Part shown: positions 27,783-31,134 of the stretch, piece after piece | How the letters are laid out: each line of letters begins with the position of its first letter | How positions within the stretch are numbered: position 1 is the first letter of the stretch | From: an uncultured Oscillospiraceae bacterium | GTDB taxonomy: Bacteria > Bacillota > Clostridia > Oscillospirales > Acutalibacteraceae | Length of the DNA: 64,000 nt | Assembly: GCA_949289045.1 (NCBI GenBank) | Contig: CASEMN010000002.1 | Location: 186,001-250,000 of the forward strand | Reading direction: 5' to 3' | Translations under genes and position numbers: made by a program | Notes under the pieces: generated by a model | Database searches by the model: none | What the model saw: the letters and a program-made list of their open reading frames with translations, nothing else | What the model was told of the DNA's origin: nothing

Positions 27783-27811
27783 TTGACATTGTAAAATCAC
27801 GGTGCTATAAT
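27783..27811 (+). promoter_or_regulatory. Consensus promoter of the mgtA locus
   Basis: TTGACA, 17-bp spacer and TATAAT, both hexamers perfect, with an added extended TGC. It is the strongest promoter seen in the window, and transcription would start just before the M-box. Such a promoter needs downstream control. Confidence 0.88.
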
Positions 27812-27820
27812 ACCTAAAGT

Positions 27821-27975
27821 ATTCGGTAGGTGAGGCTCCTACAGGGATATGGATTGCTGCCGCGGAATCGTGGAGACACGATGAGAAGGTTTGAACAGGC
27901 TGTATCGAAAAGCAAGGTACAGCATAATGCAATTTCACCGCCCTGTAAAGCTAAAGCTCAAACGAAGATATAAGA
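27821..27975 (+). promoter_or_regulatory. M-box (ykoK) magnesium riboswitch
   Basis: The conserved M-box segments are present in order: GGTAGGTGAGGCTCCTAC, then ATTGCTGCCG, three arms of the expected size, and near the end CCCTGTAAAGCTAAAGCTC. This RNA binds several Mg2+ ions and stops transcription when Mg2+ is plentiful. It lies between the promoter and a terminator and upstream of a Mg2+ transport ATPase, which agrees with the known role. Confidence 0.93.
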
Positions 27976-27982
27976 GTTTATG

Positions 27983-28018
27983 CTCCCGTATGTTCTTGCC
28001 GAATATACGGGAGTTTTT
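27983..28018 (+). terminator. M-box expression-platform terminator
   Basis: CTCCCGTAT and ATACGGGAG form a 9-bp stem followed by five T. It sits directly after the aptamer, as expected for an off-switch at high Mg2+. Confidence 0.92.
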
Positions 28019-28047
28019 ATTTTGCAAAGAAAGAGAGGTGCGCCAGA

Positions 28048-28140
28048 ATGGATAACGGTCATCACCGAAGTTTTATTTTAATAAAGAGAATGATGGTTAA
28101 CGAAAAATATGCTTTCAGGCGCACTTTGCCTGTGGCTTAG
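28048..28140 (+). CDS. Small leader ORF between the M-box and mgtA (30 aa)
   Basis: ATG with GAGGTG seven bases upstream opens a 30-codon frame: a start MDNGHHRSF, a basic middle (IKRMMVNEKYAF), and an end RRTLPVA. No homolog is recognised. Codons 13-18 contain the sequence that can pair with the following terminator, so ribosomes on this ORF could decide whether that terminator forms. The ORF's own ribosome binding site can pair with GGCGCACT near its end (28117-28124). It resembles in principle, but not in sequence, the mgtL leader peptide of enteric bacteria. Confidence 0.5.
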   Translation: MDNGHHRSFILIKRMMVNEKYAFRRTLPVA

Positions 28141-28176
28141 ATTTTGTGCGGCAAAATGAAATTGACCATCGTTTTC
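28086..28176 (+). promoter_or_regulatory. Antiterminator pairing upstream of mgtA
   Basis: GAGAATGATGGTTAA (28086-28100) can pair over 15 consecutive bases (three G-T) with TTGACCATCGTTTTC (28162-28176). The second strand contains the whole 5' arm of the next terminator, so the two structures exclude each other. The sequence between them can form its own TTTGCC/GGCAAA stem. Confidence 0.55.
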
Positions 28177-28201
28177 GGGCTTTGAAAACGGTGGATTTTT
28201 T
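28166..28201 (+). terminator. Second intrinsic terminator in the mgtA leader
   Basis: CCATCGTTTTC and GAAAACGGTGG form an 11-bp stem (one T-G pair), seven-base loop, then ATTTTTT. It is 240 bp before mgtA and after the M-box terminator. Since mgtA has no visible promoter after it, this must be a conditional terminator. Confidence 0.82.
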
Positions 28202-28291
28202 ATGTCCTTTTTCAGAAAACAACGCCTTAAAGGCGATTACATAGATATTATTTTGAAAAAAGAGGTGACGGATAATGGACGCAGGAAGTAG
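28202..28291 (+). CDS. Possible small ORF (29 aa) after the second terminator
   Basis: ATG follows the terminator's T-run; GGTGG in the terminator's 3' arm could serve as ribosome binding site. The frame ([20 protein letters not shown] and nine more residues) overlaps the start of the next small ORF by 17 bp. It may be a real short peptide or chance. Confidence 0.25.
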
Positions 28292-28373
28292 TAATGGTAT
28301 TAAACCGAAAGGGCGAAATTCAGAGAAAAGTAAAGAAGCGGAATTATCCGTACATCTTACCATCAGGGAATAA
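28275..28373 (+). CDS. Small ORF (32 aa) just upstream of mgtA
   Basis: GAGGTG lies seven bases before an ATG that opens a 32-codon, charged frame ([13 protein letters not shown] to LTIRE). It ends 67 bp before mgtA, 20 bp before the strand that can hide the mgtA ribosome binding site. I do not recognise it. An ATG inside it at 28294 is in frame with mgtA, but that would give the ATPase an unusual 49-residue extension. Confidence 0.4.
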
Positions 28374-28392
28374 AAGCCCTTTGATTTGTACC

Positions 28393-28434
28393 GTACTTCC
28401 TTTAGCTTATTTAGCAAAAATTAAACGGAGGTAC
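28393..28434 (+). promoter_or_regulatory. Hairpin hiding the mgtA ribosome binding site
   Basis: GTACTTCC (28393-28400) and GGAGGTAC (28427-28434) can form eight pairs (one T-G) across a 26-base loop, burying the GGAGG used by mgtA. This could add translational control. Confidence 0.4.
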
Positions 28435-28440
28435 TGTAAG

Positions 28441-31134
28441 ATGAAGAAAATAATCAAAAGAAGAATTGCGGCAGATTTTGTCCGCAGAGATGAAATAAAA
28501 GCAAAAATGATATTTGCCGCTACTCATGCGGAAAGAGAAGCACTGAAATTTTTAAACGCACTGCCTGAAGGTCTCACCGAGGATTTTGTAGAAGAGTCAA
28601 GAGAAAAAAACGGCAAAAACACTGTAACCCATGGAAAAAAGGAATCTCTTTTCAAAAGAATCTGCGGCGCATTTATAAATCCCTTTACTGCTATTTTATT
28701 TGTCCTTGCACTGGTTTCAGTTGTGACTGATATAATTTTAGCGGCACCCGAAGATAAAAACTATGTGACAGTTATAATCATTACAACAATGGTCATGATT
28801 TCAGGTCTTCTTCGTTTCATTCAGGAGACAAGAAGCGGCAATGCGGCTGCAAATCTTTCAAAAATGATTTGCACAACCGCCTGTGTGGAAAGAGCGGAGA
28901 CAGGAAAAAAAGAAATCTCCATTGACGACATTGTTGTAGGCGATATAGTTCATCTTTCCGCTGGGGATATGATTCCCGCCGATGTGCGTATTTTGTCGGC
29001 AAAGGATTTATTTGTAAGCCAGTCGGCTCTTACGGGCGAAAGCGAGCCCGTTGAAAAACAGGCAAATGTCTCATCAGGTTCAGAAGCTCTTACAGAGATT
29101 TCAAACCTTGCCTTTATGGGCAGCAATGTAATAAGCGGCAGTGCAAAAGCTGTTGTTGTGGCAGTGGGCAACGATACCATGCTCGGAACAATGGCAAAGG
29201 ATTTAAGCGTAAAACCGCCGAAAACCACCTTTGAAAAAGGAGTCAATGCGGTTTCCTGGGTACTTATTAGATTTATGCTCGTAATGGTTCCGGTGGTACT
29301 GTTTATAAACGGATTTACCAAGGGCGACTGGCTGGATGCTCTTTTGTTTGCAATATCCGTAGCTGTAGGTCTTACCCCCGAAATGCTGCCCATGATTGTT
29401 ACCACCAACCTTGCCAAAGGCGCTGTAACTATGGCTAAGAAAAAGGTAATTATCAAAAATCTCAACGCCATTCAGAACTTAGGTTCCATTGACATACTGT
29501 GCACCGATAAAACAGGCACACTCACTCAGGATAAAGTGGTTTTGGAATACTATCTTGACATAAACGGCAACGAGGATAAAAGAGTGCTTCGCCACGCTTT
29601 TCTCAATAGCTACTTTCAGACAGGTCTTAAAAATCTCATCGACATTGCAATTATTTCCCATGAGGAAGGCCTTGACAGTGACGCACTGAAAACAGAATAT
29701 ACAAAAGTGGATGAAATCCCATTTGACTTCAACCGCCGCAGAATGAGCGTAGTTGTTGCAGACAGCAGCGGCAAAACACAGCTTATTACAAAAGGCGCTG
29801 TTGAGGAAATGCTCAAATGCTGCTCTCATGCGGAGATTGACGGCAAAGTAGTTGCCCTCACAGAAGAGACTCGCACATTCATAACAAGAAAATCAGATGA
29901 CCTTAACGGCAAGGGAATGCGTGTTATTGCAGTTGCACAGAAAACAAATCCCGCTCCCGTTGGACAGTTCAGTGTAAAGGACGAATCCGACATGGTGCTT
30001 ATAGGCTTCCTTGCATTCCTTGATCCCCCTAAAGCCACTACCATGAGTGCAATCAAAGCACTTAACGACAACGGTGCAGATGTAAAAATACTTACGGGAG
30101 ACAACGAAAAAGTAACAGTAAGCATAGCAAAACAGGTTGGACTTAAAGTAAACGAGATTCTGCTCGGCTCAGATCTTGATAACCTTACCGATGAAGAACT
30201 TAGCGAAAAAGCGGAAAACATTACAGTATTTGCAAAGCTTTCTCCTGAGCAGAAAGCAAGGATCGTGAGAATTCTCCGTCAGAACGGCCACAGTGTAGGC
30301 TACATGGGTGACGGAATTAACGACGCAGCCGCCATGAAAGCAGCCGATGTAGGCATATCTGTAGATACGGCAGTGGATATTGCAAAAGAATCAGCAGATG
30401 TAATACTTCTCGAAAAGGATTTGAATGTTCTGGAGGACGGAATCATAGAGGGCAGAAATACATATGCCAACATGATTAAATACATAAAAATGACCGCTTC
30501 CTCAAACTTCGGAAATATGTTTTCCGTACTGGCAGCGAGCGCATTTCTCCCCTTCCTGCCAATGGCTGCAATCCACCTTATCCTCCTTAACCTTATTTAT
30601 GACCTTTCCTGCACTGCAATCCCCTGGGATAACGTTGACAAGGAATTTGTGAAAAAACCACGTAAATGGTCTGCTTCATCAGTAAGCAAATTCATGCTGT
30701 GGATAGGTCCCACAAGTTCGGTTTTTGATATTACAACATATCTGCTTATGTATTTTGTAATCTGCCCCATGGTAACAGGCGGACAGCTTTTCCATCAGTT
30801 AACTGATCCTACTGCTCAAGCGCTTTACATTGCGACATTCCAGGCAGGCTGGTTTGTTGAATCCATGTGGAGCCAGACTCTTGTCATACATATGATTAGA
30901 ACACCTAAAATCCCCTTTGTACAAAGCCGTGCTTCCTTACCTGTAATGCTTCTCACCTTTACAGGCATCGCCTTTGTTACAGCTATCCCCTTTACTCCCT
31001 TAGGAAGCCTTTTGGGGCTCGCCCCTCTTCCCCCTGTCTATTTTGCATGGCTTGCCCTTACAATCGCCTGCTATATGTGCCTTGCAACTTTCATGAAGAA
31101 AATGTATGTAAGAAAATATGGCGAGCTGCTGTAA
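28441..31134 (+). CDS. mgtA: Mg2+-transporting P-type ATPase
   Basis: 897 residues, the same length as enteric MgtA. P3B-type ATPase motifs: TGES (198-201), the phosphorylated DKTGT (Asp356), GDGIND (623-628), and about ten membrane helices, four of them in the N-terminal half. It imports Mg2+ at the expense of ATP. The start with GGAGG nine bases upstream was chosen although the frame is open to 28294. Control by the M-box riboswitch upstream strongly supports Mg2+ as substrate. It is monocistronic, with a strong terminator after it. Confidence 0.96.

Follow-up and report, generated by a model that had tools for sequence, protein, structure and literature searches.

M-box riboswitches are normally sufficient for control. 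In enteric bacteria, a terminator stays usable as long as mgtL is translated completely, and drop-off of ribosomes at acidic codons under low Mg2+ opens mgtA (PMC11282234). In the mgtQ leader, Asp2 and Glu5 are required for translation of mgtB, which proceeds via an alternative hairpin that frees the ribosome binding site (PMC8092293). Leader-ORF attenuation, tandem attenuators (PMC3641672), M-boxes and M-boxes accompanied by upstream ORFs (PMC12810186) are already known. Here, we describe an mgtA locus of an uncultured Oscillospiraceae bacterium and propose, with moderate confidence, that the gene lies behind three stacked gates: an M-box, a transcriptional leader-ORF switch and a translational leader-ORF switch. 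Translation of the two leader ORFs probably decides, via alternative RNA folds that many gut Clostridia have conserved, whether the pump is made.

The window, by which we mean the whole 64,000-nucleotide stretch of DNA analyzed, carries in order a promoter, an M-box, terminator T1, leader ORF1, terminator T2, leader ORF2 and mgtA, all on the + strand. The sigma-70-type promoter (27783-27811) reads TTGACA-17-TATAAT, 12/12 with a TG extension. The aptamer that follows (27815-27975) scored 103.2 bits against RF00380, whose gathering score is 44 bits; this score, together with the terminator expression platform T1 directly downstream (27982-28014; predicted -21.5 kcal/mol), identifies it as an M-box Mg2+ riboswitch. 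The mgtA gene (28441-31134) encodes a Mg2+-translocating P-type ATPase of 897 amino acids (TIGR01524, 1172.7 bits; cut-off 610.75). Between 27700 and 28500 we counted three terminator-like sites, T2 among them, against an expectation of 0.7 ± 0.9. A search of 28015-28445 against Rfam returned no family covering the leader stretch, and the leader peptides had no match above cut-off among Pfam and NCBIfam models.

ORF1 (28048-28140) starts with ATG, comprises 30 codons encoding MDNGHHRSFILIKRMMVNEKYAFRRTLPVA and is preceded by the Shine-Dalgarno (SD) sequence GAGAGG at 28033-28038. This short ORF with its ribosome binding site lies 5′ of the intrinsic terminator T2, a stem-loop at 28166-28194 with a contiguous 11-bp stem (dG -14.2) and a U-tract at 28195-28201 (tail ATTTTTT). 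Codons 13-18 of ORF1 (28086-28100), which we call segment 2 or the antiterminator, are complementary to segment 4 (28162-28176), which includes the 5′ arm of T2, and the two structures are mutually exclusive. The predicted duplex contains 15 consecutive pairs, three of them G-U, with an energy of -19.7 kcal/mol vs. -14.2 for T2. Such a pairing was rare when the ORF segment was dinucleotide-shuffled 500 times (P 0.002), and in a scan of the leader in 45-nt windows, none of the 75 others paired with the T2 arm as well as the antiterminator does. An earlier sequence-only reading had proposed the 30-codon ORF, a second 11-bp terminator and the 15-base pairing, and all three were recovered at exactly its positions. 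We also considered whether early ORF1 codons (28058-28066) pair with the antiterminator in a trp-like manner; this pairing is good in the window, its conservation is not clear (P 0.03 to 0.09), and it was set aside.

We then compared loci with an M-box and mgtA in other Clostridia. The order M-box, T1, ORF1, T2, ORF2, mgtA is shared by L058, L059, L062, L063, L064, L065 and L040, and probably by L139. Related layouts occur in L073, L099, L100 and L136, and in L083 and L042 a sole leader ORF is followed by a terminator; the ORF1-T2 unit stacked behind an M-box thus recurs in several lineages. ORF1-like ORFs ahead of a terminator were found at 14 loci besides the window, with peptides such as MDDGHSIS, MDYGSSLG, MDAGSRRK, MDEYRRYK and, from a GTG start, VYHSRRY. 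In 14/15 loci, whose selection was in part by eye since recognition of T2 and the ORF came first, the ORF1 stop codon lies 10-40 nt 5′ of the T2 stem. In L136, the ORF1-like frame (TDTPDSKRK...) has ACG as its first codon, at the spacing expected from a good SD, so that either a non-standard start is used or the start codon has been lost.

An unrestricted duplex search gave noisy partners, and segments were therefore restricted and then tested against shuffles. Dinucleotide shuffles of each ORF segment placed the pairing of segments 2 and 4 (2:4) below 0.05 in 10/15 loci, with a combined Fisher P of 8e-12; taken alone, L062, L099, L100, L139 and L042 remained above 0.05. The control pairings 1:4 and 3:4 at the T2 loci were null (P 0.15 and 0.07, shuffles). 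The energies of the loci's own pairs summed to -304 kcal/mol vs. -215 ± 15 for permuted partners, a sum reached in 0/100000 permutations; since shared GC content can inflate such own-versus-other comparisons, the shuffle tests are the ones we rely on. When eight loci were aligned by hand on the 2:4 core, 92% of cells paired and 5/11 pairs had changed on both sides. The covariation score was reached by 0/500 shuffles, and the signal disappeared when the partner was slid by 1-3 columns. The sequences of this layout differ between loci yet stay complementary, as in ATGATGG with CCATCGT in the window and ACGACGG with CCGCCGT in L062. The antiterminator keeps no fixed reading frame, as expected of an RNA element. 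The T2 stem also shows changes on both sides across loci, with a shuffle control less decisive than that for 2:4. The sequence-only reading had tied its attenuator to conservation of the ORF, the pairing and the 11-bp stem in relatives; the first two hold across the loci compared, and the stem does so less decisively. On sequence grounds, the antiterminator pairing is not due to chance, and ORF1 and T2 look like a real leader-ORF attenuator.

Closer relatives provided a further view of this unit. In the sister species G002 (L003), the stretch is 83% identical, and mgtA and ORF2 are deleted. There, the M-box scores 33 bits vs. 103 in the window, ORF1 is frameshifted with a stop at codon 15, and T2 is intact. 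Decay of the M-box and ORF1 after loss of mgtA fits relaxed selection on the unit. These data bear on the simplest alternative, in which the M-box and T1 alone regulate mgtA and ORF1, T2 and ORF2 are remnants or products of chance. M-box riboswitches normally suffice and the sister species retains T2 despite the loss of mgtA, but the covariation and shuffle tests, the recurrence in several lineages and the decay of the ORF1 frame where mgtA is gone make this explanation highly improbable. More distant members of the family, at their M-box-mgtA loci, carry a single leader ORF directly 5′ of mgtA, with starts such as MDSGSSSG, MDAGGRC, MDTDGGS, MEPGSTG and MGAAHSDD. ORF2 is therefore a general feature, and ORF1 with T2 an extra unit. 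The families of two T2-positive genomes, when searched, held no further mgtA. A search of 98 relatives with the ORF2 peptide matched the window alone: such peptides are too short and too divergent, so that neighborhood and nucleotide searches were needed.

Leader ORF2 (28275-28373; MDAGSSNG..., 32 residues) is more widely conserved than ORF1. Downstream of it, an anti-Shine-Dalgarno sequence, GTACTTCC (28393-28400), pairs in a predicted hairpin with the mgtA SD, GGAGGTAC (28427-28434), and would sequester it. GGAAGTA in codons 4-6 of ORF2 (28284-28290) is complementary to the anti-SD at 28394-28400 with 7/7 pairs. Across 52 loci, the anti-SD/mgtA SD pairing was strongly supported (P 3e-19), as was pairing of leader codons 1-12 with the post-ORF2 region that holds the anti-SD (P 4e-10); neither the last 12 codons (0.47) nor the start region (0.19) gave a signal with the same region. 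Among 57 leaders, defined as the SD-start site nearest mgtA and chosen blind to the peptide, 47 have an acidic codon 2, compared with 1/52 control sites, and 55 keep frame 0 open over 25 codons or more, compared with 20 and 6 for the other frames. Both leader ORFs of the window have an acidic second codon. Serines in codons 2-16 of the leaders are encoded by AGY in 115/151 cases vs. 23/97 in later codons and 601/1426 in mgtA, and pairing of the early codons with the anti-SD may explain this bias. The attenuator stacked behind the M-box that the sequence-only reading envisaged is supported by covariation, stop-codon position and recurrence, but its picture was incomplete: there are two tandem leader ORFs, and both ORF2 and the hairpin hiding the mgtA SD had been missed.

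Between T2 and ORF2 lies a small conserved hairpin, ACGCCTTAAAGGCG (28222-28235), followed by ATAGATATT; equivalents of this hairpin (AACGCC..GGCGAT) with ATAGATATT (28222-28255) are present in L058, L059, L063 and L040. Just 3′ of the T2 U-tract (e.g. 28200-28212), a conserved ATGCCC/GCGCCC element precedes a T-rich stretch, and it is conserved in distant leaders, also in L042, L096, L104 and L139.

A second conserved helix, which we term 1:3, pairs the SD/start-codon region of a leader with the 3′ end of its own ORF, a feature absent from a plain trp-type scheme. In leader unit 1, segment 1 (28037-28044) overlaps the ORF1 SD and pairs with segment 3 (28118-28125), GGUGCGCC with GGCGCACU. In leader unit 2, segment 1 (28262-28277) comprises the ORF2 SD (28262-28267) and start codon and pairs with segment 3 near the ORF2 3′ end (about 28343-28358), where ACGGATAAT and ATTATCCGT form nine Watson-Crick pairs. 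For ORF1-type leaders the combined P was 1e-6 (shuffles), the ORF1 of the window alone giving 0.06; for 52 ORF2-type leaders of unrelated sequence it was 2e-34 (shuffles). In the latter set, own pairs summed to -1180 vs. -836 ± 24 for permuted ones, with the start codon paired in 50/52 and the SD likewise in 50/52. Helices 1:3 and 2:4 use different, interleaved bases, so that both together would form a pseudoknot, and they could be present simultaneously in this form. In Lactococcus cremoris (L077), a leader ORF contains a hairpin within its 3′ end, and its start-site latch is very long, which is possibly a different use of the same parts.

The possibility that 1:3 and 2:4 form together also supports another explanation, namely a structured RNA element, such as a Mg2+-binding pseudoknot, that acts without translation, the ORFs being incidental or coding for functional small proteins. 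The AGY bias of the early serines points the same way, indicating constraint on the RNA sequence as such. However, the open frame, the acidic codon 2 and the SD are conserved far above control, the ORF1 stop codon is close to T2 at nearly all loci, and a helix that hides the leader start site is most sensible if the leader is translated. The C-terminal halves of the leader peptides, which are not conserved, further argue against a small-protein function. We therefore regard an element independent of translation as quite improbable.

Next, we examined which genes such leaders precede. In a blind nucleotide search of 394 genomes of the order, the motif AGGTGAN{2,7}ATGGANNNNGGNAGT gave 29 matches, some of them near-duplicates from one genus, and the reversed pattern gave 1. 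Of these 29, 23 were located just upstream of mgtE-type genes, five upstream of mgtA and one upstream of an unrelated region; MgtE_N and CBS domains were confirmed in four of the mgtE-type loci. Scanning for M-boxes showed that 19/20 mgtE loci lack one, although the upstream sequence of one of these spans only some 250 nt. In many relatives of the same order (L169-L195), mgtE is preceded by MDAGSSxG-type leader ORFs and no M-box, which suggests riboswitch-independent Mg2+ control. Similar leaders also occur in M-box-mgtE loci and one M-box-corA locus, the mgtE and corA of M-box loci being recognized by eye from N-terminal sequences. In L031, an M-box precedes an apparent corA along with a leader-like ORF, MDGDGGIRSTSYELK. 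At the mgtE loci, the 1:3 helix (P 2e-11) and the anti-SD pairing (P 8e-6) were supported, and 2:4 was weak (P 0.01). Taken together, comparison across loci shows the architecture: the leader ORFs, the four pairings and how they covary, and the association with Mg2+ transporters.

Other mgtA leaders (L068, L078, L081, L084, L093, L108, L110, L147, L153, L157 and others) have in common a long hairpin, GCAAGGAAATCGCAAGG...GTGATTTTCCTTGC, that is conserved, resembles a terminator and seems to be a regulatory element of its own; in some, frames resembling MgtC or a response regulator are found nearby.

In the mechanism that we propose, gate 1 would be the M-box with T1. At gate 2, segment 2 would capture segment 4, preventing termination at T2, and at gate 3 the early ORF2 codons would capture the anti-SD and free the mgtA SD for translation. 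During full translation of a leader, ribosomes would occupy segments 1 and 2, allowing T2 or the SD hairpin to form and keeping mgtA off. If ribosomes aborted early, helix 1:3 would shut the leader start site and 2:4 would form, turning mgtA on, and this start-site latch would keep the RNA untranslated. Low Mg2+ would favor such abortion by destabilizing ribosomes at the acidic N-terminal codons, as in enteric MgtL and MgtQ. By analogy with these systems, we infer the on/off polarity of gates 2 and 3 and Mg2+ as their signal. The anatomy suits the enteric logic, with an acidic codon 2, an antiterminator beyond the initiating ribosome and a stop codon near T2. ORF1 has a single acidic residue near its start, so that strong Mg2+-dependent destabilization of ribosomes is not obvious.

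Folding calculations are compatible with more than one use of this architecture. In the window, the T2 form is predicted at -49.0 and the antiterminated form at -48.0, a difference of no more than 1 kcal/mol. Masking a ribosome footprint at codons 4-20 of ORF1 led to predicted termination at most positions, with one exception, and the antiterminator formed when the footprint was at the start codon or near the stop; polarity thus depends on timing and is left unfixed by the calculation. The same RNA architecture could follow another ribosome logic, sensing a general slowing of translation or amino-acid shortage, or having full translation open mgtA and a mid-ORF stall close it. The footprint outcomes near the stop codon and mid-ORF agree with this logic, and ORF1 contains His5-His6 and arginines. 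Nevertheless, the His codons are not common to other ORF1s, the leader goes with mutually unrelated families of Mg2+ transporters and not with a biosynthesis pathway, and the functionally nearest known systems run the opposite way (PMC11282234, PMC8092293). We consider a different logic rather unlikely and favor the Mg2+-responsive polarity. A broader generalization is tentative: a leader-ORF family starting M-[DE]-x-G-S... might control mgtA, mgtE and corA in Clostridia and beyond, often replacing the M-box. Ribosome failure on the first codons would produce a pseudoknot that latches the leader's own start site and captures a terminator or anti-SD, making the ribosome the Mg2+ sensor, two of which would be stacked behind a riboswitch in the window.

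In the literature searched, which lacked preprints and most subscription journals, we found no description of the window's leader type in Gram-positive bacteria and none, for clostridial Mg2+ transporter genes, of leader ORFs that contain an antiterminator, nor any of leader-ORF stacking behind an M-box or of a start-site latch; coverage was incomplete, and this absence holds only for the literature searched. According to the same literature, Mg2+ sensing by ribosome failure on a leader ORF is established solely in enteric bacteria. In Clostridia, three unrelated families of Mg2+ transporters are preceded by a leader of comparable logic that shows no evident sequence relation, and the system would offer a direct test of the ribosome as a general Mg2+ sensor. 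As a component of leader-peptide regulation, the start-site latch would be new. In the window, a riboswitch for the same ion stands ahead of the stacked leader ORFs, raising the question of why both sensors serve one gene.

Compared with known systems, the locus shares with enteric MgtL of E. coli and Salmonella (PMC11282234) a leader ORF that precedes mgtA and has an acidic codon early on and, as proposed here, a link between leader translation and mgtA transcription. MgtL uses Rho-dependent termination without an M-box, whereas the window has the intrinsic terminator T2, an M-box ahead and two leader ORFs. The window's peptides share no evident sequence with MgtL beyond the acidic codon 2, common to most of the leaders, and the destabilizing acidic/proline motif EPDP of MgtL is absent from ORF1 and ORF2. 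In the Salmonella mgtCBR operon, mgtM and mgtP (PMC3641672) are likewise two tandem leader ORFs before a Mg2+-related operon, but their attenuators respond to ATP and proline, without an M-box. The pe20 M-box of M. tuberculosis with uORF2/Rv1805A (PMC12810186) also combines small upstream ORFs with a translational gate; there, uORF2 is itself the M-box target and termination is Rho-dependent, with no intrinsic T2 or ORF-internal antiterminator described. Salmonella mgtQ before mgtB (PMC8092293) comes close to gate 3, being a short Asp2-bearing ORF with alternative pairings and with a hairpin in which the ribosome binding site is hidden: ORF2 has Asp2, and the transporter's ribosome binding site lies in a hairpin that competes with an ORF-internal pairing. 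This likeness is one of architecture and not of homology, as mgtQ has 8 codons and pairings 1:2, 2:3 and 3:4, whereas the window's leaders have about 30 codons and pairings 1:3, 2:4 and 4:5, with no evident sequence relation. Relative to the classical M-box (RF00380), gate 1 of the window is an ordinary M-box with its terminator, and two further gates follow.
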